Below, one piece after another: positions 10,501 through 60,907 of a DNA stretch of 64,000 nucleotides. This stretch comes from Treponema sp. (GTDB lineage Bacteria > Spirochaetota > Spirochaetia > Treponematales > Treponemataceae): the NCBI GenBank assembly GCA_016290335.1, contig JAEETM010000001.1, forward strand, positions 48,288 to 112,287, read 5' to 3'. Both the position numbers and the translations under genes were made by a program. The notes under the pieces are model-generated. The model was not told where the DNA came from, ran no database searches, and saw only the letters and a program-made list of their open reading frames with translations. Each line of letters starts with the position of its first letter. Positions within the stretch are counted from its first letter, which is position 1.

Positions 10501-10588
10501 AAAGGCTCGAAATTGCGAAAACTAAAATAATTGCAGCTATGGCAATCAAGAAGTTTCGCAAGGTCTTGTTAATTTTTATTCCTACCAT
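7550..10588 (-). CDS. Membrane-anchored extracellular solute-binding protein with large N-terminal beta-sandwich extension
   Basis: The 1012-aa product is more than twice the usual CUT1 binding-protein length. Residues 12-30 form an uncleaved-looking membrane anchor (NFLIAIAAIILVFAISSLL) without a lipobox. Two similar blocks follow (about 95-230 and 280-400), each with a GYYNIRMEY / GWYTISIKA-type strand and a CBM-like pattern (WRDGGPVKFDNRG; GQWIEWDMEIPENGWY). The family-1 binding-protein fold occupies about 555-990 (NGPDVVISIYSS, PETESFNLLFYRKDILEQ, TWEDLIEIL). It is first in the operon. No Shine-Dalgarno is visible; an extended -10 box ends 9 nt before the ATG, suggesting a leaderless or near-leaderless mRNA. 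The N-terminal domains as carbohydrate binders are an inference. Confidence 0.85.
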   Translation of the reverse strand: MVGIKINKTLRNFLIAIAAIILVFAISSLLPEKDFHEKYENVDFSSLKGSVSATKSYSEYLAEHPNAKSAKSTVNLDVFAYDEEASTGVHVENNYKGKDVVITDEDSTVTWNFDVPETGYYNIRMEYIGTPSRNVTIERSLKINGENPFSGAENLSFFRLWRDGGPVKFDNRGNNIRPSQVEIFDYQTAYFKNDLGYEVEPYRFYFTAGPNTISLTATNEPVAISKLSLVPVVTYDSYEQYLKKMPSNPDSYEGKPAVVKIQGENSVLRSDPSLFARYDRSSATTEPYSVKNTILNFTGGDSWKAPGQWIEWDMEIPENGWYTISIKARQLYQRGYLACRSVYIDGEIPIEDLKNVGFEYSTDWKLRTLAGADKKPFKFYFTKGTHKIRLEVTLGEVGSIINELQDSIFRLNQVYRTILVLTGTYPDAFRDYEIDKVYPNEVEAMHIESCRLYKLIDQFVAITGEKSDKIAPAETLAIQLEQFYKRPDKITQAFANFKDNITSLGSSLLTMTESKLDVDYILVQGANDKIKPVRAGFIKNAKHEVLSFFTSFFVDSASLGDVYEKGAEHLIEVWIVTGRDQSQILKNMVDDSFTPNSDIKVNVKLINQNSLLNAVVAGNGPDVVISIYSSAPVDYALRNADVNLMRFPDCEDVLTWFKPSAYVPYQYDGGLYALPETESFNLLFYRKDILEQLELEVPQTWEDLIEILPTLQGNNLTVGIPYPNIVTPDLSMFYSMLYQNGGQVYNPSGMKTVIDSEEGVAAFKVYTSLFNSYGLPVVYDFMSRFRTGEMPLGVANYSTYNTLVVGAPEIRGLWDFTYILGTEKEDGSIDRSNIAGTVCTMMIKKGINLDDLDLSNTKELVYSAYNGRTFEKGAVPGVDEKTWATVMKNENRIQDAWKFMKWWASTETQVRFGREMEAVLGSSARYATANVEALKQLSWKTAQIEVLEKSLDETIGVPEVPGSYYTPRHVVNGTRKVINEKDDARETLIDYARKINEELKRKRQEFNLPVED

Positions 10589-10744
10589 AATGTTACCATT
10601 ATATCATAACAAAAAATTTATGAAATAGGTAAAACGCTACAATTACAAAAATTTACATTTTTATAATAACTTTTTTCAATTTTTTAGCTTTTTTTAAGCT
10701 CTTTTTAAGTGTCTTTTTAGCCTTTTGAGACCATCCTTCAAGAT
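10589..10744. other. AT-rich intergenic spacer between the PspC gene and the transporter operon
   Basis: The 156-bp spacer holds the extended -10 box next to 10588 and, nearer the PspC stop, a stretch of repeated AAAAAG/CTTAAAA units on the minus strand. I see no good hairpin terminator. Translated, the A-rich part would read as an amphipathic Lys-rich helix, but no start codon precedes it. Confidence 0.5.
10598..10606 (-). promoter_or_regulatory. Extended -10 promoter element of the solute-binding protein operon
   Basis: On the minus strand TGATATAAT (TGnTATAAT) occupies 10606-10598 and the ATG begins at 10588, nine bases later. No convincing -35 is seen at 17 bp spacing. Transcription starting about 7 nt after the box would leave at most three bases before the ATG. 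Confidence 0.5.
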
Positions 10745-11068
10745 TTATTTTTTGAAGTACTTGTTGAACTCATCATCAGTATGAGGAGCCTTGCTTTCAG
10801 GATCTGATTTCTCAGAAGCAGAAGAATTGCGGGCTTCATCAGAATCAATATTTGCACTCTTCATATTTTCAACATCATCGTTATCTGAAACACTTGCTTC
10901 CGGCATTACCAGAGCAGCAATAAGATAAAGAATAACACCTACTCCCTTGAACAAAGCAACAAGACATACACAGATTCTTACGATTGTAGGGTCAATCTTA
11001 AAATATTCAGCAAGGCCACCACAAACACCAAAAAGCATTTTCTTATTTGATTTTCTAAGTTTTTTCAT
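10745..11068 (-). CDS. PspC-domain small membrane protein
   Basis: This 107-aa protein starts with the PspC signature: a basic N-terminus, the FGVCGGLAEYFKIDPTIVR motif (residues 13-31) and a hydrophobic helix (about 32-57). A charged Asp/Glu/Ser-rich cytoplasmic tail (60-107) follows. PspC-family proteins sense or respond to envelope stress in several bacteria; here the role is inferred from the domain and from the neighbouring PadR and HAAS/DUF4097 genes, which lie upstream on the same strand. A hairpin-rich 110-bp spacer separates it from the DUF4097 gene, so expression relative to the upstream genes may be tuned. An AGGAGAAT precedes the ATG. Confidence 0.85.
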   Translation of the reverse strand: MKKLRKSNKKMLFGVCGGLAEYFKIDPTIVRICVCLVALFKGVGVILYLIAALVMPEASVSDNDDVENMKSANIDSDEARNSSASEKSDPESKAPHTDDEFNKYFKK

Positions 11069-11090
11069 TTTCTATTCTCCTGAGTTTAAA

Positions 11091-11160
11091 GAAACGCGAG
11101 CAGTCGCGCAGCGTTTCATTGAATTGCATAATAGCAGATTTGGAACGTTTACGTTTCAAA
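11091..11160 (-). other. Two intercistronic hairpins between the DUF4097 and PspC genes
   Basis: Stem 1 is GAAACGC (11091-11097) with GCGTTTC (11111-11117). Stem 2 is TTTGGAACG (11139-11147), loop TTTA, CGTTTCAAA (11152-11160) with one mismatch. Neither is followed by a clear U-tract in the minus direction, so processing or attenuation is as likely as termination. Confidence 0.5.
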
Positions 11161-11178
11161 TCTTCCTTTTTTAGTTTA

Positions 11179-12448: not shown

Positions 12449-12472
12449 ATTACAACTCCTTTAATATCATTT

Positions 12473-12509
12473 ATACTTATATATTATATATAATATAGTA
12501 TTGTGTCAA
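12473..12509 (-). promoter_or_regulatory. padR operon promoter with overlapping palindromic operator
   Basis: A consensus -35 TTGACA lies at 12509-12504 on the minus strand. A TATAAT occurs at 12488-12483 (15-bp spacer) and a TAATAT gives 17 bp. The -10 region lies inside an 18-bp perfect palindrome (12480-12497), flanked by ATAC at 12473 and GTAT ending 12501, the ATAC...GTAT pattern common in PadR operators. Autorepression is the natural reading. Confidence 0.7.
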
Positions 12510-12641
12510 GAAAAATATTATATTTTTATAAAAAATTATTGCTTATTTTGGATTTATTATCAATCAAACACTCATTTCCCAACTCCTCAATCACTCATTT
12601 ATATAGAATCAACTATAAATATATGCTATTCTATACGTATC

Positions 12642-13334
12642 ATGGAAACTTTAGGGTGGATTTTTCTTGGCCTACTTACAGTAAGCCTGTTTTTGTTTAT
12701 TTTGGGGAGCATTAAGAACTGGGAGATTATGATTAAAATCTCCAGGATTTTCATAGTTCCGTTTACCTGCGTGATTATCCTGCTGTTTTTAAAGCAGCTG
12801 TTCCCGGATTCAAGACACATTTTTTTCCTTACGACTATTGCACTTACTCTTATTTCTCTTTGTGAGCTTTGTTTTTCTTTTGAAAGCCTTAAGTTTTTCA
12901 GATATTTCGGACGTTTCCTTTTTCTACTGAGTAACGCCGCCTGGATTGAGCTTTTTATTTCCACTTTTTATATTTACCGCCCGGCTCAGTGGATGAACAT
13001 TCTTTTTGCCGGCATATACTTTGTGATTCTTGTACTGCTTTTAATAATCTGCGGGAAAAACAAAATTGGAACTTATATGAGCATATTAATTGGTTATGCA
13101 AGCGTAATTCTGTTGAATTATTCGGCAATTATTACCTGGATTTTCAGCAAACGTGAATATGCAGTTTTTCTTACTACAGGAACTACAATTCTGCTTTTAA
13201 GCTTTATACTTTACGAAAAGCAGAAAACAAAGCCGTGGAAAATCAATGAAAGAATTGAGCTGATTATAAGGACTTTGCTTATAACATGTGCAGAAGCCCT
13301 TATAACGGCAAGCACGATTTTTATGATACGTTAG
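12642..13334 (+). CDS. Polytopic membrane protein of unknown function
   Basis: This 230-aa protein from METLGWIFLGLL is built of seven or eight hydrophobic helices with short loops and no conserved catalytic motif that I recognise. A longer reading frame back to about 12501 runs through the promoter region and looks untranslated. No Shine-Dalgarno precedes the ATG; an extended -10-like TGCTATTCT ends 9 nt upstream, so near-leaderless translation is possible. It diverges from padR and could be controlled by the same region. Its 3' end overlaps the dapB stop by 4 bp on the opposite strand. Confidence 0.7.
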   Translation: METLGWIFLGLLTVSLFLFILGSIKNWEIMIKISRIFIVPFTCVIILLFLKQLFPDSRHIFFLTTIALTLISLCELCFSFESLKFFRYFGRFLFLLSNAAWIELFISTFYIYRPAQWMNILFAGIYFVILVLLLIICGKNKIGTYMSILIGYASVILLNYSAIITWIFSKREYAVFLTTGTTILLLSFILYEKQKTKPWKINERIELIIRTLLITCAEALITASTIFMIR

Positions 13335-15698: not shown

Positions 15699-17639
15699 TT
15701 ACACCACCGCAAAGTTCACATTCTGCTCGACAATATCAATTTTGCCAGCCTTTAAGGTGCGGGTATCATTCAATTTTACATCATTGCAGGCTCGGATTGT
15801 GGCCTGCATGTCCAGGGTAGGAATCAGAAATAGTGCATCGTTACCGCGGCGGTCAATGCACACTCCTTCAAAAGTGAGTTCAGGGTTTTGGGTTAAATAC
15901 ACAAGCTTCCAGTGCATTTCGCTGAGGCGGGAAACCTGGCGGGCGGCAATACTGGCTGCATCTCCGGCGGCAACCCGTTCGAGCATTTCATCTTTGGGAA
16001 GAGGACGCCTTCCATCAATAAAAGCCCTGAGCTGCTGGTGTGAAATTAAATCTCCATAGCGGCGGAGGGGCGAAGTAACCTGACTGTAAAAGCTCACCCC
16101 AAGTCCTGCGTGTGGAGCCGGAGTAATACCCACCGAACGCTTGCGCATACACTTTACGCGAGCAAACTCCCCGGCCCAGCCATCTGGTAGGCTTGAAGGA
16201 AAATCCGGAGCTTCCTGGCTCACATACATAAAAGGCAGCTTGTTCTTAAACGCAAAACGGGCAGCACCTTCACCAGCCATTACCATCAGCTCGGCAATCA
16301 TATCATTGGATTCAAGGCGAACCTCAGGCTCAATCGTTACTTTTTTTGTTTCCCGGTTAACGCTGATGTTAACCTCTGGCATCTGAATAGTCACAGCTCC
16401 ATTTGCTTCCCGGCGAGCCTTGTTTTTACGTGCGATTTCAAAAAGCGGCTTTAATTCAGGCGACTCCTTCTGCTGTTCAGCCTGAGTATATGTCATTCGT
16501 TCAACATGCACCCTTGTTTTTAAAACCTCACAGGATTCAATCTGGCTGTTTTCATCAACCTTAATCTTAAATGAAAGCGCACAGGATGGATTTTTCAACC
16601 CCAGAGCATAATCTTCAAGACAGCTTTCTGCCAGCATACGTGAAGCACCTTCTGGAATATAAAGCGTAGTTCCCCTTCCCCGCGCTGCAATATCAATAGA
16701 AGAATCAGGCAAAACAGAAGATGCAGGATCTGCAATATGAACCCAAAGATATTCACCGTCAAATGCAACTGCATCATCCGGATCGGTAGAATGTTCACTG
16801 TCTATGGCATACGCAAGGCCCGGAACTTCCACTCGTTCTTCTTCCGGCATTGCACCAAGCTGTTCTTTGGCAGAATCAAAGCTGAACCCAAACCGCGTAG
16901 GATAAGGATTTTTTGTAAAATCCCAGATTCCAGTTTCTATTAAAAGCTTATGTGCCTTTTCCACAGTCTGACCGATTCCAGCCTCCTGCAAAACCTTACA
17001 CTTTTCGGTCCGATTCAAAGCAAAGGCTTCAACCTCGCCCATAAACTTTGCATCACCAGGTAAATCAAGCTTCCGATCTTTCAGTCGTTGTAAAAAAGCT
17101 GCCCTAATTTCGTTTTCATGCTCTTTTTCGTATTTTTTCTGATTAAGAGAATCGATTTCTGCCTGAGTACGCGGAACAAAAGCAATTCTTCCCTCTTTCA
17201 ATGCTTCTGCAACAGGAGCAAAATAAACTGCCCCGCAAACTGCCGCATAAAAAGCCCAGGCTTCATCAGCCGTAAAGCTACCAAGTGCATATTCAGCAAG
17301 TTCACTTAAAGATATTTCTGATGTTGCCGTAGATTCATCACTAAGCAAAAGCTCATACGTTTCCTGAATCTTAGTAAGAAAATCCGCAGAAACAGTGCCC
17401 CCGGAAAAAGAAATGTCCCCCGAATTATTTGCTAACTCAAGCACCTTTTCCAGCGACGAACACGGACCTTCATGAAGTACAACCACATCCTTTTCGCGTA
17501 CTTTCTGTTCACCGTACACCGCCTTTTTCCCGGTAGCAGTAGCCGGCTGTGTACAAAATCTTATTACATATTTATCGCCGTCTCGTTCTGAGATTACGGC
17601 AGGAGCATTCTTATATAAAACAACTGTATTTTTTTGCAT
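15699..17639 (-). CDS. RNase II-family 3'-5' exoribonuclease (RNB domain)
   Basis: The 646-aa protein matches RNase II in length. The RNB catalytic centre is visible at about residues 278-292 (AIDSEHSTDPDDAVAF), with the Asp cluster that binds two metals, followed by LWVHIADPASSV. Further conserved pieces are LYIPEGASRM, LMVMAGEGAA and TSPLRRYGDLISHQQL with the Arg that positions RNA. The C-terminal S1-like part is short. It degrades single-stranded RNA in the cytoplasm. No Shine-Dalgarno precedes the ATG; an extended -10 (TGCTAGAAT, 17654-17646) leaves exactly six bases before it, so the mRNA may be leaderless. Confidence 0.88.
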   Translation of the reverse strand: MQKNTVVLYKNAPAVISERDGDKYVIRFCTQPATATGKKAVYGEQKVREKDVVVLHEGPCSSLEKVLELANNSGDISFSGGTVSADFLTKIQETYELLLSDESTATSEISLSELAEYALGSFTADEAWAFYAAVCGAVYFAPVAEALKEGRIAFVPRTQAEIDSLNQKKYEKEHENEIRAAFLQRLKDRKLDLPGDAKFMGEVEAFALNRTEKCKVLQEAGIGQTVEKAHKLLIETGIWDFTKNPYPTRFGFSFDSAKEQLGAMPEEERVEVPGLAYAIDSEHSTDPDDAVAFDGEYLWVHIADPASSVLPDSSIDIAARGRGTTLYIPEGASRMLAESCLEDYALGLKNPSCALSFKIKVDENSQIESCEVLKTRVHVERMTYTQAEQQKESPELKPLFEIARKNKARREANGAVTIQMPEVNISVNRETKKVTIEPEVRLESNDMIAELMVMAGEGAARFAFKNKLPFMYVSQEAPDFPSSLPDGWAGEFARVKCMRKRSVGITPAPHAGLGVSFYSQVTSPLRRYGDLISHQQLRAFIDGRRPLPKDEMLERVAAGDAASIAARQVSRLSEMHWKLVYLTQNPELTFEGVCIDRRGNDALFLIPTLDMQATIRACNDVKLNDTRTLKAGKIDIVEQNVNFAVV

Positions 17640-17645: not shown

Positions 17646-17654
17646 ATTCTAGCA
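17646..17654 (-). promoter_or_regulatory. Extended -10 element directly upstream of the RNase II gene
   Basis: TGCTAGAAT reads on the minus strand from 17654 to 17646 and the ATG starts at 17639, so a start site seven bases after the box would coincide with the A of ATG. The corresponding -35 region falls in the T-tract of the upstream terminator. Confidence 0.55.
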
Positions 17655-28181: not shown

Positions 28182-28210
28182 TTGAAAAAAGTTTAAACTA
28201 ATAGTAAAAT
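28182..28210 (+). promoter_or_regulatory. Promoter of the SpoIIE-type phosphatase gene
   Basis: TTGAAA (28182-28187), 17-bp spacer, TAAAAT (28205-28210). The GTG start is at 28217, six bases after the -10 box, so transcription would begin at or next to the start codon. Confidence 0.7.
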
Positions 28211-28216: not shown

Positions 28217-29587
28217 GTGAAGAACGAGAAATCAGCTTCCAACATCAAGAATAAGTTCTCAAATGGTACATCTTTGCCTTACGAGTTCCGGGTTGAATTA
28301 ACGAACATGAACTTAAAAAGACTGTTTTACCTTGACTGGGTCTTTTTAGTTTCGGCAATACTGCTTTTTGTTCTATACCTTATGGGAGTATTACGTAACG
28401 GTGTAAAATACGAGAATCTTTTCTGCATGGGTTATATCACTACAACAGCTATTTCTCTTATTCTTACTTTTCTTTTCAGAAAACATACAAATCTTCCTAT
28501 TTTTGTAAGAACTATACCGTTAACTCTTTCCTATATTGTTATAATGCTCATGTGCGTTGTAATTTTTTATATAGATTTCCCATTTTTAAATGCACTGCTG
28601 ATTTTCGTATGCCTTACTGTCTTAATACCGATTTTCTTTACCGTACCGCCACTTTTCTATAACTCAGTACTTATATTAACTTACATTGCCGTATTCTTAA
28701 GACTTAAACCGACACAATCTATATCTTTTCTTGTATGTCTTGCAGTTTTTGTAATCATGATTGGTTTCTTTTCAATCTTCAAATGGCGGACAACAAAAAA
28801 CGAGCTTATCTTAAAAGATGAACAGAATCAGCGAACAAAGCTTCTTGAAAAGGAAATAAATCTTGCTGCCTTTGTGCAGAACAGCTTTTACAAGCATATT
28901 GATCTTAAAATTGAAGGCTGGAATATAGAATACTTTTCTGAACCAATGGCTGGAGTTTCGGGTGATATGCACGATATTTACACTAAAGGAAATAACCTTG
29001 AAGGTCTTGGTGTTTTTGATGTATCCGGTCATGGTATTTCTTCCGGTCTTGTAACAATGCTTGTAAAGAACATAATCCAGCAGGAGTTTGAGCTTGGCAA
29101 GGAAGAAAATCTTCAGACTGTAATGAAGAGGATTAACGACAGGATTATTATTGAAAAAGGCGATATTGAAAATTATCTTACCGGTATTCTTACACGCATT
29201 CACGACAATAAGGTTGAGCTCATAAATGCAGGAAATCCTCCGCCAATCATTCATAAGGCAGAAACAAATGAATCATATTTTTATGAAACAAATGAGCTTA
29301 CGAATTATGGTGTAATCGGTATGGCTGATTTCCCTGTGGGATATTCTGTTAACACAATAGAAATGCAGTCTGGAGATTCAATTCTGTTCTATACAGATGG
29401 TATTACCGAAAACTGCAATGATGAAAACACACCTTATGGCAAGAAAAACCTCATGCAGGTGTTCAAAAACAACACTTACAAAACGAGCAAAGACCAGCTT
29501 GCAGACATAGTAAGTGACTATAAAAAATTTAAGGGTGACGCGCGTTCATCCGACGACATCACCCTTGTTATATTAAAAAAGCTTTAA
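28217..29587 (+). CDS. Membrane-bound PP2C-type (SpoIIE/RsbU) serine phosphatase
   Basis: The 456-aa protein has a hydrophobic N-terminal half with six or seven helices (about residues 35-195), a coiled linker (EQNQRTKLLEKEINLAAFVQ) and a SpoIIE-type PP2C domain (about 225-456). Metal-binding signatures are visible: EPMAGVSGDMHDI, GVFDVSGHGISSGL, NAGNPPP, LFYTDGITE and DDITLVILK. Such enzymes dephosphorylate anti-sigma-factor antagonists; no antagonist or anti-sigma gene is adjacent. The GTG start is chosen because the reading frame opens there next to a good promoter; an ATG at about 28310 is the alternative. Its stop abuts the argG stop on the other strand. Confidence 0.87.
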   Translation: MKNEKSASNIKNKFSNGTSLPYEFRVELTNMNLKRLFYLDWVFLVSAILLFVLYLMGVLRNGVKYENLFCMGYITTTAISLILTFLFRKHTNLPIFVRTIPLTLSYIVIMLMCVVIFYIDFPFLNALLIFVCLTVLIPIFFTVPPLFYNSVLILTYIAVFLRLKPTQSISFLVCLAVFVIMIGFFSIFKWRTTKNELILKDEQNQRTKLLEKEINLAAFVQNSFYKHIDLKIEGWNIEYFSEPMAGVSGDMHDIYTKGNNLEGLGVFDVSGHGISSGLVTMLVKNIIQQEFELGKEENLQTVMKRINDRIIIEKGDIENYLTGILTRIHDNKVELINAGNPPPIIHKAETNESYFYETNELTNYGVIGMADFPVGYSVNTIEMQSGDSILFYTDGITENCNDENTPYGKKNLMQVFKNNTYKTSKDQLADIVSDYKKFKGDARSSDDITLVILKKL

Positions 29588-30953: not shown

Positions 30954-31910
30954 CTATTTTTCATCATCAGATTTTTTTGCAGCATGTTTCTTTCGGAAGG
31001 CCATAACGCCCATAGGGTAGAAAATCATAGTGGTGATACCGAGGATGAAATATTTCAGGAGGTGGGAAAAATGAGTGCCCAGAGGAGCAAATACAAAGCC
31101 AAGGCCTACTTTTTCGGCAAAAACGATGATACCGCCAATAAGGAAGCATATGATTTTGTTTTTCCAGGCTCCGGCAGCTTCGTAGTGAATGAAACGGCGG
31201 TCTGCAAGCCAGCCAAGAAGAGCTGCACATGAAAGACCTGTGGCGGTATAGCAGTCGGTAAGCATATCGTAAGGATCAACAAGAAGAGTTCCGTCTTCAA
31301 GATAATCTAATGGATAAGGCTTAAACTGAAGATAAAGTAAACCTGCAATGGCAAGAACAATACCAATAATAACAAGCAGAATATCTTTATCCTGATGAGA
31401 AGCAAACCAGTAGCTTAAAACTTCAAATATACAGATAAAGAATGCACCTTCAAGAATTGCTACAAGAACATCCTGTATGGTATGAACGCCAAGCCAGTTT
31501 CTTGAAAAGGCTGTAAGGAAAATGAGTGTAAACATAAGGATTACAACCCACTTTTTCTTTTTCTGAAAAACTGCAACGCTGCCGAAGAATGATGCGGCAG
31601 AAACAGTATGTCCGCTTGGGAACGAATAACCTGTTGCACTTGGTTTTGCAGCTGCATAAGGAGTAAGTTCAGGATAACGAATCCATGGTCTGTAAACACA
31701 GGCTGTATTTTTTATAAGTTGATTTGAAAAAAAAGTCGTTGAATAACAGAGGAACATTTTTGTACCGGCAGTTTTACTTACACACCAGTAAATAAATGCA
31801 GGAAGCATAAAGCCCAGATTTTGAACCATATCTGAAACAAGCATAAAAAAACGGTTTATAAAATCGGGGCAAGATTCCCTTATAGTTTGAAGCATATATA
31901 AGTAATTCAT
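30954..31910 (-). CDS. PAP2-superfamily membrane phosphatase
   Basis: The 318-aa membrane protein carries the three-part acid-phosphatase signature: KNTACVYRPWIRYP (KX6RP type), SFPSGHTVSAASFFGS (PSGH) and SRNWLGVHTIQDVLVA (SRX5HX3D). Hydrophobic helices surround and follow these. It probably dephosphorylates a lipid pyrophosphate or phosphatidate outside the inner membrane. I choose the start MNYLYMLQTIRES at 31910, because a perfect extended -10 (TGATATAAT, ending 31918) leaves seven bases before this ATG and overlaps the earlier in-frame ATG at 31919. No Shine-Dalgarno is present. Confidence 0.88.
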   Translation of the reverse strand: MNYLYMLQTIRESCPDFINRFFMLVSDMVQNLGFMLPAFIYWCVSKTAGTKMFLCYSTTFFSNQLIKNTACVYRPWIRYPELTPYAAAKPSATGYSFPSGHTVSAASFFGSVAVFQKKKKWVVILMFTLIFLTAFSRNWLGVHTIQDVLVAILEGAFFICIFEVLSYWFASHQDKDILLVIIGIVLAIAGLLYLQFKPYPLDYLEDGTLLVDPYDMLTDCYTATGLSCAALLGWLADRRFIHYEAAGAWKNKIICFLIGGIIVFAEKVGLGFVFAPLGTHFSHLLKYFILGITTMIFYPMGVMAFRKKHAAKKSDDEK

Positions 31911-31917
31911 AACATTC

Positions 31918-31926
31918 ATTATATCA
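31918..31926 (-). promoter_or_regulatory. Extended -10 element upstream of the PAP2 gene
   Basis: TGATATAAT reads from 31926 to 31918 on the minus strand. Seven bases separate it from ATG 31910, which suggests a leaderless transcript. Confidence 0.55.
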
Positions 31927-41473: not shown

Positions 41474-42688
41474 TTATTTTGCAAGTGATTCTTCAAGTCT
41501 TTTTCTGATTTCTGCAATGTATTCCCAAGAATTAAGAACAGCTTTTGCAGCAGGTTCAGCAATTCGGGCAATGTCACCTGTCATATAGCCGTCTTCAATT
41601 GTTCCAAGGGTTGCTTTTTCAAGCTTCTTTGCAAAATCAACAAGTTCTGGAGTTTCGTCGAGTTCTCCGCGTTTTGCAAGAGCACCAGTCCAGGCAAAAA
41701 TTGTAGCTACAGGGTTTGTAGATGTTTTTTCGCCTTTAAGGTAGCGGTAATAATGCTTTTGAACTGTACCGTGGCTTGCTTCGTACTCAAAGTTGCCTTC
41801 AGGACTAACAAGTACAGAAGTCATCATAGCAAGACTACCACAGGCAGAAGCAATCATATCGCTCATAACATCTCCGTCGTAGTTCTTTGTAGCCCACATA
41901 AAGCCGCCTTCGCTTCTCATAACACGGGCAACTGCATCATCAATCAAAGTATAGAAGTATTCAAGGCCGGCAGCCTCAAACTTAATTTTGTATTCTTCAT
42001 CAAAAATACGCTGGAAGATTGCCTTAAAGTTTCCATCGTAAGTCTTGCTGATAGTGTCTTTTGCACCAAACCATACGCTAACCTTTCGGTCCAAAGCATA
42101 AGTAAAGCAACAGCGGGCAAAGTTTTCTATAGATGCATCAAGATTGTGGATTCCCTGAATAATTCCAGGTCCCTTCATTTCCATAATTGTTTTGCGGATT
42201 TCCTTACCGTCAACACCGGTGAACACCAGTTCGGCGCGGCCAGCTGTAGGGCATTTAATCTCGCAGTTTTTATAAATATCTCCATAAGCGTGACGGCCAA
42301 GTACAATAGGCTTTTTCCAGCAGCTTACAGTTCCGTGGATATTGTTTACAAAAATAGGCTCGCGGAAAACTGTACCGTCAAGCTCTGCACGGATAATTCC
42401 GTTAGGACTTGGAGTGAGCTTTTTAAGCTTATACTCCTCTACTCGTGCCTGATTTGAAGTAATCGTAGCGCATTTTACGCCAACGTGAAGCCGTTTGATT
42501 GCATCTGCTGCAGCATAAGTAATTTTGTCATCTGAATCATCACGACTCTTCAATCCCAAATCATAATATTCGGTTTTAAGGTCAACAAAAGGTAAAAGAA
42601 GCTCGTCTTTAATTACCTTCCACAAAACACGTGTCATTTCGTCGCCATCAAGCTCTGCGATAGCATTTTTCATCTGAATCTTTGCCAT
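41474..42688 (-). CDS. icd: NADP-dependent isocitrate dehydrogenase, homodimeric eukaryote-like type
   Basis: The 404-aa enzyme oxidises isocitrate to 2-oxoglutarate. It belongs to the type II family: AELDGDEMTRVLWKVIK near the start, TSNQARVEEY, PSPNGIIRAELDGTVFREPI, and EASHGTVQKHYYRYLKGEKTSTNP (given in part) for NADP and substrate. Length is typical. It heads the operon with the hydratase; no citrate synthase is nearby, so the set probably serves glutamate supply. No Shine-Dalgarno is seen. A -35 TTGTAA and -10 TATAAT (42703-42698) leave nine bases before the ATG. Confidence 0.95.
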   Translation of the reverse strand: MAKIQMKNAIAELDGDEMTRVLWKVIKDELLLPFVDLKTEYYDLGLKSRDDSDDKITYAAADAIKRLHVGVKCATITSNQARVEEYKLKKLTPSPNGIIRAELDGTVFREPIFVNNIHGTVSCWKKPIVLGRHAYGDIYKNCEIKCPTAGRAELVFTGVDGKEIRKTIMEMKGPGIIQGIHNLDASIENFARCCFTYALDRKVSVWFGAKDTISKTYDGNFKAIFQRIFDEEYKIKFEAAGLEYFYTLIDDAVARVMRSEGGFMWATKNYDGDVMSDMIASACGSLAMMTSVLVSPEGNFEYEASHGTVQKHYYRYLKGEKTSTNPVATIFAWTGALAKRGELDETPELVDFAKKLEKATLGTIEDGYMTGDIARIAEPAAKAVLNSWEYIAEIRKRLEESLAK

Positions 42689-42697: not shown

Positions 42698-42726
42698 ATT
42701 ATATAAAAAAGATGGGGGCGTTACAA
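42698..42726 (-). promoter_or_regulatory. icd operon promoter
   Basis: TTGTAA (42726-42721), 17-bp spacer, TATAAT (42703-42698) on the minus strand; ATG at 42688. A start site seven bases after the -10 would leave a leader of about three nucleotides. The -35 lies inside the first codons of the antitoxin-like frame on the other strand. Confidence 0.65.
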
Positions 42727-43035: not shown

Positions 43036-44646
43036 TTAGTCTTCATCAAAATTAATATAATCTGAAATAATAACACCATCAGTATTTGTACGCCATTGAG
43101 CTGTAAGATCATATGCATTATCACCACCCACATCAAGATAATACAATCTTCCAGTTTCTACTTTTATTTCAGGAATATTTACATAAGAAACAGAGGATCC
43201 AATTCTCCAACCAGAAATTGCAGCTGTAGTTGTAAAAGTTTTATTATAACTTACCATTGGAACTTCAAATACCATAGATTTACCTGTATTTATTCTCTTA
43301 CCACCTGTAGATGTTATTTCTGCAAAAGAATTTGCACCTTTGTAAAGAGAAATACCAGTCTTATCATTTCCATTTGTAATTGTAATATAAGCTGCTGCAG
43401 GAGTTGAAGTATCTTTGAATGCATTTGGATCAAACCAATCTGTTGCATTAAATTCAGCTGATTTCTGACCATTTTCTTCCAAACTGAACTGGAAGAAAAC
43501 AGGTTTGTCAATATTCTTCTCTTTAGGGAAACATGTTACGATTTCACCAGTCTTTTTCTGGAATTTTCTGAATACAGGATAGATATAATAATCATCATAA
43601 GCAATATATACTTTTGTCTGTACTGTATTAGCTCCAGCAAATGCTAATGATTCGCCATAAAGTCCATTTTGACGCAATTCAACATTATAATTTGTTGAAT
43701 TGTTTATGAGTAAATAAGCTTCACCACCCATACTTGAAGAAATTGTATAAACCAAATTAGAGTTTGAATCTGAATCAGCATTGTAATAAGCATATATCAA
43801 GGCAAAAGGATTTCTTTGCAAGTCATAATAATCATATTTTCCTCGTTTATAGAGCTCATAATTTTCTGCAGTAATAACCCAAAGAACAAAATCACCAGAA
43901 TTAGAAAAAAGATATTTATTATATTTTAGACAACATGTAGCCCCTGCACGAACACCGCTAATTAAAGTTGATTCAGAAGGAGCTCCCTTAAAGCAAACCA
44001 CATTGGTATTAGATTCATTTCTTACCTTAATTGAATAATTACTATTTCTATAGTCAGTGTAATCAATCTGATAATAATCCGGCTGATAATAATAATCTGT
44101 TGCTTCAAAAAGAACCAAATCCTCTTTCCAAGAACCAGAAAGCCAAATCTTTTTTATATAAACAGTTCCGTAGGTTGCAACGTAATTATTATTATTATCG
44201 TGAATATAAAATCTAAGTCTTGTTGCTGTATCAGCACAATCTGAGTAATTTCCACCATTAGTCCAATCTATATATTGTGCACCAGCAAGACACTTTCCAC
44301 TTGGTGTCCAGGAGGGATCTTGCTCATTTTGATAAAGTGTTTCCGAAGCTTGTATTTCATTATTCCATAATTCAACACAAAGCCCAGTACCATTCGGTGA
44401 CTTCCAAGAACAATCCACATTTAATGTTGTATATCCGCTACCTTCCGGAATATACGGAATATAAAAAAAATTATCCCAATCATAACATTCCAATATATAA
44501 GGTTCTCTGACTGTTTTTTCATATACATCACCACTTCCATCAAGATAAATAATTCTCGTACGTATTGAAGATTCCATACATGAAGAAAAAACAATAACGA
44601 AAAATATTAAAGAAAAAACCGATAAACTTTTAGAATACTTTTTCAT
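43036..44646 (-). CDS. Secreted lipoprotein of unknown function
   Basis: The 536-aa protein has a lipoprotein signal peptide (MKKYSKSLSVFSLIFFVIVFSSC in two parts: hydrophobic core then FSSC lipobox with Cys at about residue 23). The mature part is rich in Tyr, Asn, Ser and aromatic-alternating strands, consistent with beta-sandwich domains. I recognise no enzyme motif. The start at 44646 is chosen for the signal peptide; ATG 44667 is in frame and lies five bases after an extended -10 (TGCTATAAT, ending 44673), so the leader is very short either way. It stands alone between an antitoxin-like gene and a heptanucleotide array, an accessory-looking spot. Confidence 0.6.
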   Translation of the reverse strand: MKKYSKSLSVFSLIFFVIVFSSCMESSIRTRIIYLDGSGDVYEKTVREPYILECYDWDNFFYIPYIPEGSGYTTLNVDCSWKSPNGTGLCVELWNNEIQASETLYQNEQDPSWTPSGKCLAGAQYIDWTNGGNYSDCADTATRLRFYIHDNNNNYVATYGTVYIKKIWLSGSWKEDLVLFEATDYYYQPDYYQIDYTDYRNSNYSIKVRNESNTNVVCFKGAPSESTLISGVRAGATCCLKYNKYLFSNSGDFVLWVITAENYELYKRGKYDYYDLQRNPFALIYAYYNADSDSNSNLVYTISSSMGGEAYLLINNSTNYNVELRQNGLYGESLAFAGANTVQTKVYIAYDDYYIYPVFRKFQKKTGEIVTCFPKEKNIDKPVFFQFSLEENGQKSAEFNATDWFDPNAFKDTSTPAAAYITITNGNDKTGISLYKGANSFAEITSTGGKRINTGKSMVFEVPMVSYNKTFTTTAAISGWRIGSSVSYVNIPEIKVETGRLYYLDVGGDNAYDLTAQWRTNTDGVIISDYINFDED

Positions 44647-44743
44647 CAAAAAATCCATTTCCAACATAAATAATTATAGCATACTCTGCCAGCATTTCCA
44701 CATTTTTACTTACCTTTAAGACCATTATCTGCCAAAAAATACT

Positions 44744-54682: not shown

Positions 54683-56522
54683 AAACATTTCCCTTTTAAA
54701 AGAAAGATTTCCTTCTCTTGCAGAGCTTTACAAAGATTATTTATGTTCTACACAATTCAACCAGAATCCACCGGTGATTGATTTCTGGAATATTACACAG
54801 GCCAGAAACGGTTCGCCTACAGCAGAAGATTTATGTACTTCACCTGCAGTAAGGCTTCATTCATCTTACAATCCGGAAAGAGAAGCATACAATGCTGTTA
54901 CGCAGGCAGCTGTTCTTGAAAAATCGGCTGTTGTTTTTTCAGGATGCGGACTCGGTTACCATTTAGTGCAGCTTGCAGCTTATCCTGCATCTGCCTCTAA
55001 AAAAATCATTCTTATTGAACCACAGCCCGAATATTTTTTTGCCGCCCTTGCCCTGCTTGACTGGTCTTCAGTTTTCCGAATTAAAAAGCTTATACTTGCA
55101 ATCGGCTGCCCGCAGGAAAACCTTATTCCGCTTCTCGAAGATTCTGAATATATAAACATTGGCTCAGCCGGCGTTTCCGATTCTTACTTTTTTGATATTC
55201 CGGCTTTTACCGCACATGCTCAGGATTATTTTAGCGGAGTTCGGACGCTCATTCAGCGCAACAAAACAAAAAATGATATAAACGCGGCCACTTACCGAAA
55301 GTTTTCAAAACGATGGATTCGCAACAGCAAAAAGAATCTTGAAAACCTTACGCATTGCCGAACAGTAAATCAGTTTTTACAGAAGCAGAAGGATTCTTTT
55401 GAGGCACAAAAACCAGGCTGGTACAAGCGTGATTGCGTTATTGTTGCAGCGGGACCTTCTCTGGAAAAAATATTACCTTATATGGCCGAGCTCCAGAAGC
55501 GTTTTACAATAATCTGTGTAGAAACAGCTTTACGTGCCTTGCTGCGTTTTAACATTCAGCCCGACTTTATCATTCTTACTGACCCGCAGTATTACGCTTA
55601 CAGACACATTGCCGGTCTTTCTGCGCCGCAAAGCATTCTGGTTTGTCCGCTTTCTGTTTATTCTTCTGTGTTCAGTTTTAATTGCCGCAAAATACTTCTT
55701 TGTTCTGATTTTTTTCCTGTAAGTTCTTTTTTTGAAAAACAACTCGGCGAGTTTGGAAACCTTGGAGCCGGCGGTTCGGTTGCAAGTTCTGCTTGGAATC
55801 TGGCATATCTTCTTGGGGCACAAAGGATTTTTTTAGCCGGACTTGATTTATCTTTTCCGTCAAAACAGACACATATAAAAGGGAGCTCCGCTGAACAGAC
55901 ATTTCACACTAAGTCAAACAGGCTTACGAGTGCTGAAAAATCAAGCTGCGGTTCAATGTACAGTGCAAACCCGGAATACGGAGTTTCGTATGATGGTAAA
56001 AAAGTTTTAACAGATTCGCGTATGAAAATGTTTGCATGGTGGTTTGAAAGCCGAATTGCGGCCTGTACCGATTCAAAGACTTTTACGCTTTGTTCTGAGT
56101 CGCTCAAGATTCCAGGGGTTGAAGTTGCAGATATAGATAAAATAATAGAAGAAAAACCTTTGGAAGCGGTTTTGCAGAATCAGACAGTAACTGCTGGAAG
56201 TATTGAAAGTGCTGAAGGCGCCGAAAGAAAAGATTTAATTAACAGCGTAAAAAATGATTTCACAGCACAGCTTAAAAAGCTCACAGTGCTTGTAAACACC
56301 GCTATAGAAAAATGTTTAATTTACGAAAATGCCACCGGTGATTCACAATCAAAGCTTCAGGCAGAACTCGCCGGAATTGAAAAACAGCTTTTACAGAATC
56401 CTCTTGCAGAAATTATAAGGCTTGCTACCCCTTCTGCAAAAGCTATTGCCACTGGCACTGACAAGCCTTATCTTTCATTTTATCAACAGCTGAAAAAAGA
56501 GCTTGAGGAATATAAATTATAA
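54663..56522 (+). CDS. DUF115 / Maf-MptE-like protein
   Basis: The 619-aa protein carries a central DUF115 domain (about 235-410) with KRDCVIVAAGPSLEKILPY, IICVETALRALLRFNIQPDF and ILTDPQYYAYRHIAG. This domain is shared by motility accessory factors (flagellin glycosylation) and MptE-like pterin kinases. The first 220 residues have a Rossmann-like patch (VVFSGCGLGYHLVQLA, IILIEPQPEYFFAAL). The start is a TTG at 54663 with GGAG about ten bases before it, inside the PBP2 gene. A role in modifying flagellar proteins is plausible for a spirochaete but is an inference. Confidence 0.83.
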   Translation: MNSIWNKNISLLKERFPSLAELYKDYLCSTQFNQNPPVIDFWNITQARNGSPTAEDLCTSPAVRLHSSYNPEREAYNAVTQAAVLEKSAVVFSGCGLGYHLVQLAAYPASASKKIILIEPQPEYFFAALALLDWSSVFRIKKLILAIGCPQENLIPLLEDSEYINIGSAGVSDSYFFDIPAFTAHAQDYFSGVRTLIQRNKTKNDINAATYRKFSKRWIRNSKKNLENLTHCRTVNQFLQKQKDSFEAQKPGWYKRDCVIVAAGPSLEKILPYMAELQKRFTIICVETALRALLRFNIQPDFIILTDPQYYAYRHIAGLSAPQSILVCPLSVYSSVFSFNCRKILLCSDFFPVSSFFEKQLGEFGNLGAGGSVASSAWNLAYLLGAQRIFLAGLDLSFPSKQTHIKGSSAEQTFHTKSNRLTSAEKSSCGSMYSANPEYGVSYDGKKVLTDSRMKMFAWWFESRIAACTDSKTFTLCSESLKIPGVEVADIDKIIEEKPLEAVLQNQTVTAGSIESAEGAERKDLINSVKNDFTAQLKKLTVLVNTAIEKCLIYENATGDSQSKLQAELAGIEKQLLQNPLAEIIRLATPSAKAIATGTDKPYLSFYQQLKKELEEYKL

Positions 56523-57671
56523 CTCTTTTGCAGCGTTGCGTACATCTTCCAGATTGAACTCTTCTGCCCCACGCTGTCCTGCAAGCAATGCAGACCTGTT
56601 CAAAACACTTTCAATTTTTGCACAGCTGTAACCATCAAACATTTTTGCAAGAACAGATTCGGTACAATCCTGTGTATGAGCTTTGCCCTTACAGTACATC
56701 TGTACAAGCTGTTCGCGTGCGTGAAAATCAGGATAAGGAACCGTAAACTTTGCATCAAAGCGTCCCGGGCGGATAAGAGCTGGATCAAGTGCCTGCACAC
56801 TGTTAGTCGCGGCTACCACAAGAACCCCATCTGTTGGTTCAAAGCCGTCAAGCTCGTTGAGTAAGGCGGTTACAATTCGGGTGTTTTCTGTTTCTATTGC
56901 ACTGCCGCTGTAATTACGAACAGTTCCAATTCCATCAAACTCATCAATAAAAACAATACACGGAGCCTTGCGTCTTGCTTTCCTGAAAAGAAGCTTTACC
57001 TTCATCGGACCGATTGCCATAAACATACTTTCAAAATCGGTTGCTTTTGCAGGAATAAAGCTAATTTTGGCTTCGCCCGAAAGTGCCCTTGCAAAAAGAG
57101 TTTTACCGTTTCCAGGCTCGCCTTCCAGCAGTATTCCTTTAGGCATTCTTATTCCCTTTGCAGCATACGCCTTAGGATTCTGCATAATCTTCATCACCTG
57201 AGTCATATCGCGCTTGAGATTATCCATTCCTACAACATCATCAAACTTAACGCCGGTTTTATGGATTACCTTAAACGTATTAGGACTGATAAACTTACGG
57301 AACACAACAATAATCAAACCAAAAAAGAAGATGTAAAAGAGTGAATCAAAAATAAGGGAAAGAATCTCCGTGGAATCCTTTTCAACCGAAACATCATCAA
57401 CAAACCGCATAATGTTTTCTTCAAGCTCAGGAGAATCCGGTCTCTTAGTTTTAAAAGTAATCTGCGTAACTGAATCATGAAAAATAATCGAATCTGATTT
57501 TATTTCAACTTTATCAATATTACCGCTTTCCAGAGTTCTGTAAAAAACACTGTATGGAACGGTTTTATATTTAGTGAATAAATCATCATAAAAAAAATAA
57601 GCTGCGCCACCTGCAACAATCAGCACAAGCAAGGCAAAAATAACAGTCTTTCGTAATTTGTTTTTGTTCAT
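56517..57671 (-). CDS. FtsH-like AAA ATPase lacking the M41 protease domain
   Basis: The 384-aa protein has the FtsH N-terminal layout: helix 9-28, a small periplasmic domain (VPYSVFYRTLESGNIDKVEI), second helix about 104-124, then an AAA domain with Walker A GEPGNGKT (184-191), Walker B CIVFIDEFDGI and the arginine-finger region ALIRPGRFDAKF. The chain stops after the AAA lid, so the HEXXH zinc-protease part (about 200 residues in normal FtsH) is absent. The pore-loop F-V-G is altered to F-M-A-I-G (about 215-219). No Shine-Dalgarno; an extended -10 (TGATATATT) leaves six bases before the ATG. It overlaps the DUF115 gene end by 6 bp. Confidence 0.9.
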   Translation of the reverse strand: MNKNKLRKTVIFALLVLIVAGGAAYFFYDDLFTKYKTVPYSVFYRTLESGNIDKVEIKSDSIIFHDSVTQITFKTKRPDSPELEENIMRFVDDVSVEKDSTEILSLIFDSLFYIFFFGLIIVVFRKFISPNTFKVIHKTGVKFDDVVGMDNLKRDMTQVMKIMQNPKAYAAKGIRMPKGILLEGEPGNGKTLFARALSGEAKISFIPAKATDFESMFMAIGPMKVKLLFRKARRKAPCIVFIDEFDGIGTVRNYSGSAIETENTRIVTALLNELDGFEPTDGVLVVAATNSVQALDPALIRPGRFDAKFTVPYPDFHAREQLVQMYCKGKAHTQDCTESVLAKMFDGYSCAKIESVLNRSALLAGQRGAEEFNLEDVRNAAKEL

Positions 57672-57677
57672 ATAGTA

Positions 57678-57686
57678 AATATATCA
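57678..57686 (-). promoter_or_regulatory. Extended -10 element of the FtsH-like gene
   Basis: TGATATATT reads from 57686 to 57678 on the minus strand; ATG is at 57671, six bases away, so a leaderless transcript is predicted. Confidence 0.55.
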
Positions 57687-57718
57687 GTTTATACAGATAA
57701 ACTAAAGACTAAATCTGG

Positions 57719-57927
57719 GGAAATCAGTTTTATAAACACTTAAACAAAAAAATAGCTTCTGGTCGTGATTCATAAAGCAAAATCGCGCAATATTGCGCTA
57801 GACGCTGCTTGTGGTATAGGAACTATCAAATGCCGCTCTCGCGGCATCCACAAGCAGAGTCTTTTTGCCTTATGCCTCACTCCCTTGCGCTATTTTTTTT
57901 TGAACACTATTTATAAAACTGATTTCC
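57719..57927. repeat. Nested inverted-repeat element of about 209 bp (MITE-like or structured RNA)
   Basis: The ends are perfect 18-bp inverted repeats (GGAAATCAGTTTTATAAA at 57719-57736; complement at 57910-57927). Inside, imperfect arms pair around AAAAAAATAGC and CATAAAGCAAAA, then CTGCTTGTGG (57805-57814) with CCACAAGCAG (57848-57857), then TGCCGC-TCTC-GCGGCA (57831-57846). A self-paired palindrome GCGCAATATTGCGC (57785-57798) lies only in the left arm. The 338-bp gap 57672-58009 holds no gene. It also contains the promoters of the FtsH-like gene and of polA. I recognise neither a transposase relic nor a known RNA family. Confidence 0.85.
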
Positions 57928-57974
57928 ATAGACTAAAACTTAGTTTAATTTACATAAACTAAATCTCAGCCTAA

Positions 57975-58003
57975 ATGACAAAATCTCTTTTTCCAATTAT
58001 AAT
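57975..58003 (+). promoter_or_regulatory. polA promoter
   Basis: ATGACA (57975-57980), 17-bp spacer, TATAAT (57998-58003). The polA ATG is at 58010, exactly six bases after the -10, and no Shine-Dalgarno exists, so a leaderless mRNA is predicted. Confidence 0.7.
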
Positions 58004-58009
58004 AGCTTT

Positions 58010-60907
58010 ATGAGTAATTCTATTTCTAAAGTTGATAACAATGATAAAACTGTATATGTAATTGACAGCTACGGCTTGATTTTCCGCTGCTATTTTGCGT
58101 TTATTTCAAGGCCGCTTACAAATAAAAATGGTGAGAATGTAAGTGCGGTGTTCGGGTTCTTCCGCAACCTTCACTGGGTTCTGGAGCATTACAAGCCAGC
58201 CTGTATAGTTGCGGCAATGGATTCCAAAACAAAAACGTTCCGCCACGAAATGTACGCTGAATATAAGGCTACAAGAAATAAAACTCCTGATGACCTTCAC
58301 GCACAGGTTCCATGGATTTGCGATATTCTTGAAACACTTGGAATCCCGGTTCTTCAGTGTGACGGCTACGAAGCTGATGATATAATTGCAACTGTTGCAA
58401 AAAAATGTGCAGAACAGGGACGAGGCTGCCGAATCCTCAGTGGCGACAAGGATTTAATGCAGCTTGTTGGTGGTGATACAGAAATCTTAAAACCAGAAAG
58501 CGGTGCTTCTACCTGGAAAGTTACCAACGCCGATGCTGTTGAAGCTGAATGGGGAGTTCGTCCTGAAAAGCTTCTGGATTTGCTTTCTTTATACGGTGAT
58601 ACTGCGGACAACATTCCGGGTGTTCACGGTGTTGGTGTAAAAACAGCAGCCAAGCTTCTTGCAGATTACGGCGACCTTGACGGCATCTATGCGCACATTG
58701 ATGAAATAAAAGGCGCAATGCAGAAGAAGCTTGCTGACGGCAAAGACTCTGCTTACTTCAGCAAAAAGCTGATTACACTTTTTGATGAAGTTCCATGCCC
58801 TGATATTGATAATGCAATTAACACCCCGCGGCTTACTTTTGATTATAAGGCAGCGGCAGATAAAATGTTTTCTTACGGAGTTCCAAGCGTTGCAAAATCT
58901 TATGCAGAGATGGGTTTTTCTGCACAAAGTAAGGCACAGAAAACAGAAGCTCCAGACAGTAAAAAAACAGAATCAAATACTGAATCTGTTACCGCCCCAC
59001 AACCTGATTTTACAGAAACTCCTTATATTCAGCCGGTACAGAACGACACTTCTTCTTACAAAGCAATTACAACTTTAAGCGAACTGGAAGCTTATGTTAC
59101 CGACTGCATTAAAAAGGCAGAAGGCACCGAAAATCTTCCACTCGCCTACGATTCAGAAACTACTTCGCTTGATACAATGACCTGCAAAATACTTGGCTTC
59201 AGTCTCTGCTGTGAAAAAGGCAAAGCAGTTTACATTCCTTTACAGCAGGAAAGTTCAGATCTGTTTAGTGAGACTAACTATATTTCCATACAGGATGCCT
59301 TTACTCAACTTGCACGACTTTTTTCGAATTCAAAACTAACAATTGTAATGCACAATGCAAAGTTTGACCTTAAGGTTCTTGCTTCAAACGGATTTTTTGC
59401 AGCAACAAAGCTTAAGCTTTCTGCACTCAAGCTTGCAGATACAATGATTATCTCCTGGCTTATCAATCCTGAACATCTTGGTAAAAACGGTTATTCACTC
59501 GAATATCTTTCTGAAACAATTGTCGGACTTAAAGGCATTGAGTTCTCTGATATAGTTCAGAAGGGACAGACCTTTGCTGATGTTCCGTTAGATACAGCTT
59601 ACAAATATGCCGCTGAGGATGCAGATTTTACACTCCAGCTTTATATTAAGCTTGATGAAAAAATAAAATCCACACAAACAGAAGCTTTTACAAATCTTCT
59701 TGAACTTGAAATGAAGGTTCTTCCTATTCTGACTCAGATGGAGCTTTACGGAATCCACCTTGAACCTTCAAAGCTAAACGATTACAACGAAGAACTTACC
59801 CGAAGTATTGCCCTTATAGAACAGAACATTTATAAGGAAGTTGGTCATCAGTTTAACATTGCTTCTCCTAAGCAGCTCCAGACAGTTTTGTTTGAAGAAC
59901 GTGGATTAAAATCCGGCAAGAAAACAAAAACAGGCTACTCTACCGATACAAGCGTTCTGGAAGAGCTTTCAGAGGTTGATGAAGTTCCACGGATGATTCT
60001 TGAATACCGCGAGCTTGCAAAGCTTAAGTCAACCTATGTAGAAACTTTACCAAAGCTTGCTGATGAAAATGGCCGAATCCACACAGATTTTGTTCAGACT
60101 GGAACTGCAACAGGCAGACTTTCCTGCCGTGAACCAAACTTACAGAACATACCGGTCCGCAATGAAGCTGGAAGACGCATACGTTCAGCATTTACAGCAC
60201 CAAAAGGAAAGGTTTTAATTTCTGCAGATTATGCACAGATTGAACTTGTAGTTCTTGCACACCTGAGCGGTGATGAAAACATGAGGCAGGCATTTATAAA
60301 CGGCACGGATGTTCACAAGGCAACAGCTGCACTCATCTATGGTGTTGAACCGGAACAGGTTTTACCGGAAATGAGGCGGACTGCAAAGACAATCAACTTT
60401 GGTGTAATTTACGGAATGTCTGCGTTCAGGCTTGCAAAGGATTTAGGCATTTCGCGTACACAGGCTGCTTCGTTTATAGACAGTTATTTTATGCAGTATT
60501 CAAAAATAAAGGATTTTATAAACGGAACGGTTGCTTCTGCGGAAGAAAAAGGATATGTAGAAACTCTGTTTGGTCGCCGCCGCCCTGTTATGAATATTAA
60601 TAGTAAGAATAAGGTGGAAAAATCAGCAGCAGAACGAGTTGCCGTAAATACACCTGTTCAGGGAACTGCAGCAGACATTGTAAAAAAAGCAATGGTTGGA
60701 GTAACTTATGCATTAAAAGAAGCAGACAGTCCTGCAAAGCTTTTGCTCCAGGTTCACGATGAGCTTATTTTTGAATGCCCTGATGACAAAAAATCAATTG
60801 AAAGTGCAATTGCAATAATAAAGGACAAAATGGAAAATGCAGTGCAGTTAAGTGTTCCGCTTAGAGTAAGCATTGAATATGGAAAATCCTGGGGCGAGTT
60901 CCACTAA
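58010..60907 (+). CDS. polA: DNA polymerase I with active 5' nuclease and proofreading domains
   Basis: The 965-aa protein has the 5'-nuclease domain (about 15-300; YEADDIIATVAK, ILSGDKDLMQLV, LYGDTADNIPGVHGVG), an Ala/Ser/Gln-rich linker (about 305-355), a 3'-5' exonuclease domain (about 360-560) and the polymerase domain (about 590-965). Exonuclease residues appear intact: the DSE of AYDSETTSL, the Asp of HNAKFDLKVL and YAAEDADFTL. Polymerase motifs are ISADYAQIELVVLAHLS (A), RRTAKTINFGVIYGMSA (B) and QVHDELIFE (C). It fills gaps in repair and lagging-strand synthesis. It precedes coaE by 19 bp, a linkage seen in several bacteria. Confidence 0.96.
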   Translation: MSNSISKVDNNDKTVYVIDSYGLIFRCYFAFISRPLTNKNGENVSAVFGFFRNLHWVLEHYKPACIVAAMDSKTKTFRHEMYAEYKATRNKTPDDLHAQVPWICDILETLGIPVLQCDGYEADDIIATVAKKCAEQGRGCRILSGDKDLMQLVGGDTEILKPESGASTWKVTNADAVEAEWGVRPEKLLDLLSLYGDTADNIPGVHGVGVKTAAKLLADYGDLDGIYAHIDEIKGAMQKKLADGKDSAYFSKKLITLFDEVPCPDIDNAINTPRLTFDYKAAADKMFSYGVPSVAKSYAEMGFSAQSKAQKTEAPDSKKTESNTESVTAPQPDFTETPYIQPVQNDTSSYKAITTLSELEAYVTDCIKKAEGTENLPLAYDSETTSLDTMTCKILGFSLCCEKGKAVYIPLQQESSDLFSETNYISIQDAFTQLARLFSNSKLTIVMHNAKFDLKVLASNGFFAATKLKLSALKLADTMIISWLINPEHLGKNGYSLEYLSETIVGLKGIEFSDIVQKGQTFADVPLDTAYKYAAEDADFTLQLYIKLDEKIKSTQTEAFTNLLELEMKVLPILTQMELYGIHLEPSKLNDYNEELTRSIALIEQNIYKEVGHQFNIASPKQLQTVLFEERGLKSGKKTKTGYSTDTSVLEELSEVDEVPRMILEYRELAKLKSTYVETLPKLADENGRIHTDFVQTGTATGRLSCREPNLQNIPVRNEAGRRIRSAFTAPKGKVLISADYAQIELVVLAHLSGDENMRQAFINGTDVHKATAALIYGVEPEQVLPEMRRTAKTINFGVIYGMSAFRLAKDLGISRTQAASFIDSYFMQYSKIKDFINGTVASAEEKGYVETLFGRRRPVMNINSKNKVEKSAAERVAVNTPVQGTAADIVKKAMVGVTYALKEADSPAKLLLQVHDELIFECPDDKKSIESAIAIIKDKMENAVQLSVPLRVSIEYGKSWGEFH

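Follow-up and report, generated by a model that had tools for sequence, protein, structure and literature searches.

Leaderless transcripts are known in spirochaetes from Leptospira interrogans, where differential RNA sequencing led to their being termed 'a common feature' and where about 440 mRNAs were reported with leaders of <10 nt, half of them with leaders of <2 nt (PMC5243855). A 2011 survey of 953 genomes (Zheng et al., PMC3160421) predicted that 6 of its 18 Spirochaetes genomes have leaderless genes, amounting to 1.8-6.9% of their genes, with averages of 39.4% in Deinococcus-Thermus and 19.2% in Actinobacteria. Here we analyse a stretch of 64,000 nucleotides of Treponema DNA (the window, meaning the whole stretch), in which nine genes, among them polA, icd and an RNase II family gene, carry a -10 promoter box a few bases ahead of the start codon and no Shine-Dalgarno (SD) sequence. 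The initial annotation, which drew attention to these nine starts, took leaderless mRNAs to be undescribed in spirochaetes; in view of the mapped Leptospira transcripts and the survey predictions this was wrong. For Treponema itself no report of leaderless mRNAs was found in the literature searched, judged by titles and abstract openings.

Leptospira interrogans belongs to the same phylum and likewise has short-leader mRNAs beside SD-led genes, but it represents a separate spirochaete lineage, and its leaders were measured, whereas here we infer where each RNA begins and how ribosomes load onto it, beside what is read directly: box position, conservation, -35, TGn and start-base signals, and SD absence. 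The Leptospira paper describes sigma-54 sites and no other promoter motif, whereas clear -10, -35 and TGn signals are present here (PMC5243855). In the TA-led genes of the survey, a -10-like signal some 12 bp ahead of the start marks a gene as leaderless. In the Treponema genes such a box precedes the start by about 10-12 nt, its hexamer ending about 6 nt off, more often than expected by chance. The nine starts have no SD although the organism uses SD elsewhere, and orthologues keep the layout, weakly so for the SpoIIE-type and lipoprotein genes. As in Deinococcus-Thermus and Actinobacteria, the -10 would be fused to the start codon and initiation independent of SD; these phyla have a larger leaderless share, and their GC-rich members have boxes reduced to TANNNT, whereas the Treponema boxes are near consensus and often extended (PMC3160421). 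The excess in Treponema bryantii corresponds to 7.8% of all genes (15.6% of operon heads) as compared to 1.8-6.9% in the spirochaetes of the survey, obtained by a different method.

By its sequence the window belongs to a rumen Treponema close to T. bryantii, itself a rumen commensal. Its polA is closest to that of a water-buffalo rumen metagenome-assembled genome (L054; 79% identity, best segment) and shares 68-70% identity with three T. bryantii strains. Very probably, sigma-70-type promoters are fused to start codons in these organisms and give rise to leaderless or near-leaderless messages.

A -10 box at a preferred offset from start codons

Wider tallies were run on genome samples of relatives, including 704 kb of about 3.2 Mb of T. 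bryantii XBD1002 (588 genes, 295 operon heads) and 400 kb of 2.9 Mb of T. ruminis, and on 300 kb of Escherichia coli K-12. Genes were called with a coding-score model blind to upstream signals, and a gene was taken as an operon head if divergent from, or >60 nt away from, the preceding gene. A strict -10 is a hexamer with at most one mismatch to TATAAT that keeps T1, A2 and T6; the gap is the number of nucleotides between hexamer and start codon, and gaps 6-9 form the tallied class. An SD match comprises at least 4 bases. Scoring used the consensus hexamers TATAAT and TTGACA, an SD string and a -10 matrix. A Fisher test of SD against -10 is inflated because both occupy the same bases; the same box count in 18 other offset windows among SD-less heads served as control instead.

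SD sequences are in regular use in these organisms. The 16S tails of T. ruminis (L081) and T. saccharophilum (L080) carry the anti-SD, and in the T. bryantii sample SD matches precede 52% of heads and 76% of operon-internal genes. None of the nine named starts of the window has an SD match (0/9), as the initial annotation had stated, and it was also right that this is no general lack, 13 of 30 operon heads in the window having one.

The genome tally of box offsets which it had proposed gave a peak at gaps 6-9 in relatives. In T. bryantii, 53 of 141 SD-less heads have a strict -10 there, against a mean of 7.06 and a maximum of 14 at other offsets and a mean of 7.2 and a maximum of 17 in 200 dinucleotide shuffles. 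The profile rises sharply at gap 6, with 2 and 1 boxes at gaps 4 and 5 and 18, 20, 9 and 6 at gaps 6 to 9, and choosing the most upstream ATG gives 55 of 143 (mean 6.8, maximum 13). T. ruminis shows 19 of 68 (mean 3.17, maximum 6; shuffles at most 8), and two further spirochaete genomes 5 of 47 (G138, 57% GC; mean 0.44, maximum 2) and 5 of 16 (G109; mean 1.39, maximum 3). With all heads scored, G063 has 1 of 31 against 0.3. The E. coli K-12 sample has no box at gaps 6-9 in 70 SD-less heads (mean 1.33). In a scan of all hexamers SD words rank first; the best-scoring word of any other kind is TATAAT at gaps 6-8.

The layout is thus real and beyond chance. That TATAAT-like words are common in an AT-rich genome and that those near starts were picked out is an exceedingly improbable account, even if it draws on the window alone, where 5 of 17 SD-less heads have the box (mean 1.0) and the best of the 18 other offset windows also reaches 5; this tally by itself is only suggestive. 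Against it stand the sharp peaks in T. bryantii and T. ruminis, a peak in 57%-GC G138 and the lack of one in 28%-GC G126, and the conservation of the layout in orthologues. Chance was rejected by means of the offset windows, the shuffles and two further ATG controls. T. bryantii shows little or no excess at internal ATGs (7/230; mean 5.1, maximum 9) or at intergenic ATGs that are not starts (75/2051; mean 62.2, maximum 83); in T. ruminis internal ATGs lie slightly above control (3/108; mean 0.8, maximum 2), and the intergenic ones amount to 34 of 1352 (mean 24.1, maximum 38).

Promoter signals and the predicted first base of the message

The box is accompanied by further promoter elements. T. 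bryantii and T. ruminis together gave 72 candidates. In 42 of these a hexamer with up to 2 mismatches to TTGACA lies 15-19 bp upstream (background positions, 317 of 1287; p=4e-9), and 29 have a TGn extension, which is seen in 23 of 148 when the -10-like boxes of SD-led heads are counted (p=9e-5). Bases expected at a transcription start were counted in a set that includes a pool of 59 loci, in which polA and its neighbours are repeated from many genomes and from which L006, L009, L011, L032, L052, L053, L060, L062 and L068 are left out. At gaps 6-7 the base just ahead of the start codon (-1) is a pyrimidine in 88 of 98 candidates, against 228 of 369 SD-led heads and 139 of 252 heads with neither signal. 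A pyrimidine-A pair occupies -4/-3 in 10 of the 16 candidates at gap 9; the figures for comparison are 46 of 252 (p=2e-4) and, at gap 6, 4 of 61. Restricted to T. bryantii and T. ruminis, the figures are weaker and point in the same direction: 38 of 47 for the -1 pyrimidine (SD-led 126/220, p=0.003; neither signal 68/129, p=0.0008), and 7 of 11 against 27 of 129 for the pair at gap 9 (p=0.005), with 1 of 25 at gap 6. The likely first base seems to track the box, which would give leaders of about 0 nt at gaps 6-7 and of 3 nt at gap 9. The initial annotation had placed transcription starts on or next to the start codons; this fits gaps 6-7, and for the gap-9 genes icd and solute-binding protein a 3-nt leader is more likely than none. 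An AUU start codon in the gap-9 class was also considered and set aside, several sites having ACT there.

RNA polymerase would accordingly recognise the -10, often extended by TGn or paired with a -35 at about 17 bp. From a box 6-7 nt upstream, transcription would start at the A of the AUG, and from a box 9 nt upstream at an A three bases ahead of it. The resulting message would have a leader of 0-3 nt without SD and would presumably be translated by the leaderless route, the ribosome taking the 5'-terminal AUG.

An A+T-rich box might also act in translation, through binding of ribosomal protein S1 or an unstructured start region, rather than as a promoter, and S1 has been named as an alternative cause of an AT bias at about -20 to -10 (PMC5397173). 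We regard this as very improbable here: the box belongs to operon heads and is almost missing from operon-internal genes (1/207 in T. bryantii), and a promoter-spaced -35, TGn and an initiator base accompany it.

Promoter-start fusion at operon heads remains our preferred reading, and several observations weigh against it. About 7 of the 53 T. bryantii boxes are expected by chance. The excess is weak in G134 (8/38; mean 2.39, maximum 5), and there is none in the spirochaetes G126 (1 of 10 SD-less heads against 1.44) and G043 (1 of 39 against 1.89). The caller's gene starts are its own calls, independent of annotation, and for three of the nine genes (SpoIIE-type, PAP2, lipoprotein) it chose a start downstream of the marked one. 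Orthologues are related, and their counts are therefore not independent; moreover, a strict box at gap 6-10 is missing from 14 of 62 SD-less orthologues of polA, 10 of 24 of rnb, 5 of 10 of the FtsH-like gene, 4 of 10 of the membrane-protein gene, 3 of 4 of the SpoIIE-type gene and the only one of the lipoprotein gene. In T. denticola, two flagellar starts were mapped to 14 and 124 nt ahead of their start codons, so neither of these reported starts is leaderless (PMC9481697).

Nine window genes and their orthologues

The nine boxes, their gaps and six TGn extensions are all present in the sequence as initially annotated. Orthologues were searched in 30 of the genomes behind 79 polA-relative loci. 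Pooled over genes, a -10 lies at gap 6-10 in 107 of the 144 orthologues without SD, against 17, 6, 2, 5, 6 and 10 in other five-base windows; leaving out polA, 59 of 82 have it, against 14, 5, 2, 4, 1 and 9. Paralogues and pieces lacking the N-terminus were dropped (icd L244-L246, FtsH-like L290-L304, solute-binding protein L318-L334, SpoIIE L343-L364, PAP2 L371-L372, and all lipoprotein loci except L376). Seven of the nine genes are best read as having a leaderless or 3-nt-leader start; the initial proposal that all nine are of this type thus holds in large part, the SpoIIE-type start being plausible and the lipoprotein start probably mis-set.

A leaderless-type start is strongly supported for polA, icd, the solute-binding protein and RNase II. 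The DNA polymerase I gene polA (58010..60907, + strand; Pfam DNA_pol_A), with a predicted leaderless start, has TATAAT as -10 at 57998..58003 (gap 6 to the ATG at 58010) and ATGACA as -35 at 57975..57980, spaced by 17 bp. The polA count entered 82 loci (L001-L068, L122-L135), of which 80 were usable and gave, with the window, 73 distinct upstreams; L121 (the same gene as L006), 15 spirochaete loci (L136-L150) and 11 non-spirochaete loci (L069-L079) stand outside it. TANNNT at exactly gap 6 is found in 54 of the 73, a strict box in 45 and an SD match in 11, and 48 of the 62 SD-less orthologues have a box at 6-10. Apart from columns -12, -11 and -7, which are fixed by the way these 54 upstreams were chosen, the informative columns (>0.35 bit) are -35/-34/-33, -23, -14, -10 to -8 and -1; to judge by them, the numbering of the polA promoter is that of the start codon. 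By eye, L052, L068 and L132 (gap 6) and L066 (gap 8) show the layout at a later ATG; all four were kept at the earlier start chosen by rule. Also by eye, the more distant spirochaete loci L136-L150 are mostly without the layout, and among the non-spirochaete loci such a box is seen only in L073 (gap 8). Of L136-L150, only the AT-rich loci L142 and L147 (25-26% GC) have TATAAT 8-9 nt ahead of the ATG, their near relatives being without it (by eye). In L133, at 73% GC, TACTAT lies six nt ahead of the polA ATG, and the layout may survive strong GC pressure.

The isocitrate/isopropylmalate dehydrogenase family gene icd (41474..42688, - strand; Pfam Iso_dh) has TATAAT as -10 at 42698..42703 (gap 9) and TTGTAA as -35 at 42721..42726 with a 17-bp spacer, and CATT ahead of the ATG suggests a 3-nt leader. 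A box at 6-10 is present in 20 of 20 SD-less orthologues. Among 28 icd sequences, the window included, 13 have gap 9, and in every one of these the base at -3 is A and that at -1 is T; the 13 are related to one another and also share, in part, a T-rich run from -22 to -17. The solute-binding protein gene (7550..10588, -; Pfam SBP_bac_1) has an extended -10, TGATATAAT, with its hexamer at 10598..10603 (gap 9) and a box in 11 of 11 SD-less orthologues. For the RNase II family gene rnb (15699..17639, -; Pfam RNB), whose extended -10 TGCTAGAAT has its hexamer at 17646..17651 (gap 6), the box recurs in 14 of 24.

Moderate support exists for a leaderless-type start in three further genes. The FtsH-like AAA ATPase gene (56517..57671, -; Pfam AAA, FtsH_ext) carries TGATATATT (hexamer 57678..57683, gap 6), and 5 of its 10 SD-less orthologues have a box at 6-10. 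The PAP2 superfamily gene (30954..31910, -; Pfam PAP2) carries TGATATAAT (hexamer 31918..31923, gap 7); both of its SD-less relatives have a box, at gap 6, and the other four relatives have an SD. The gene initially labelled as a membrane protein (12642..13334, +), which is without Pfam match, carries TGCTATTCT (hexamer 12627..12632, gap 9, two mismatches to TATAAT), and a strict -10 is found at 6-10 in 6 of 10 SD-less relatives. For the SpoIIE-type phosphatase gene (28217..29587, +; Pfam SpoIIE) such a start is plausible. It has TAAAAT as -10 at 28205..28210 (gap 6), TTGAAA as -35 at 28182-28187 and a GTG start; box and GTG are kept in one close relative (L335), the homologues beyond it are distant, and 1 of 4 SD-less homologues has a box at 6-10.

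The lipoprotein gene brings in the reading that the boxes are ordinary promoters, that the true start codons lie further downstream behind a normal leader with an SD, and that the marked starts are wrong. Its extended -10, TGCTATAAT, has the hexamer at 44673..44678 (- strand). The marked start is doubted because gap 5 falls in the depleted class and because the relative L376 keeps an MKK start with a -10 about 27 nt ahead and GGAG in between; here the box is likely that of an ordinary promoter, with the true start probably downstream at 44646 (ATGAAAAAG). The later starts which the neutral caller took for three genes agree with this. As an account of the nine genes as a whole it is very improbable: alignments to the window protein start at its first residue at 27 of 27 loci for icd, at 26 of 28 for rnb and at 12 of 13 for the solute-binding protein, there is little or no excess at internal ATGs, and the pyrimidine-A signal sits at the marked ATG.

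Probable exchange between leaderless and SD-led starts

Orthologues that do carry an SD often have a -10 box further away. Of 43 such orthologues, 20 have a box 14-39 nt upstream and 6 a box at 6-10. The icd of L239 has TATAAT 26 nt ahead of the ATG with GAGGTG in between, and polA of L129-L131 has GGAGGT with TATAAT upstream. These three loci come from genomes of 2.8-2.9 Mb (G134, G027, G039), their SD-led polA being unlike that of most counted loci. In the FtsH-like pair L276 and L277, 33 of 34 aligned promoter bases are shared; the box of L277 lies about 12 nt further from the ATG, and AAAGGA is found in the added stretch. As an example, not a statistic, the SD-led control gene at 36787 has two relatives among the 30 genomes, both with SD. 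Exchange between SD-led and leaderless starts has been reported in other phyla, so the principle is already known; the survey that reported it measured such orthologue change in Actinobacteria and Streptococcaceae (Zheng et al., PMC3160421).

Leaderless initiation is known in other bacteria and in Leptospira; here it seems to be old, widespread and swapped in some relatives. On balance we think it probable that promoter-start-codon fusions form a large set in rumen treponemes, conserved since ancient times and with the core genes polA, icd and RNase II among its members. The set would come in two precise forms (a 0-nt and a 3-nt A-Y-U leader), and individual genes would move between it and an SD leader through small insertions behind a promoter that itself stays the same. 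If this is true, the clade would offer a natural series for how leaderless and SD-led initiation replace each other, and the change could be followed base by base in genes whose leaderless form in one species has an SD-led orthologue in a near relative. Gene finders that score SD may misplace or doubt such treponeme starts. About every sixth operon of T. bryantii would start without a leader, provided that RNA maps bear this out.

Some of these heads lie back to back. In the window, polA and the FtsH-like gene form a divergent pair whose starts are separated by 338 bp (57672-58009), far beyond the need of two such promoters. Three divergent pairs in relatives, both members apparently leaderless, have 38-54 bp between starts (1680/1728 in L113 of T. 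bryantii, 6192/6231 in L168 and 17049/17104 in L116), so the two promoters of each pair must overlap. Overall, divergent leaderless heads lie slightly closer together, with a median of 128 (n=43) as compared to 155.5 (n=160; p=0.015).

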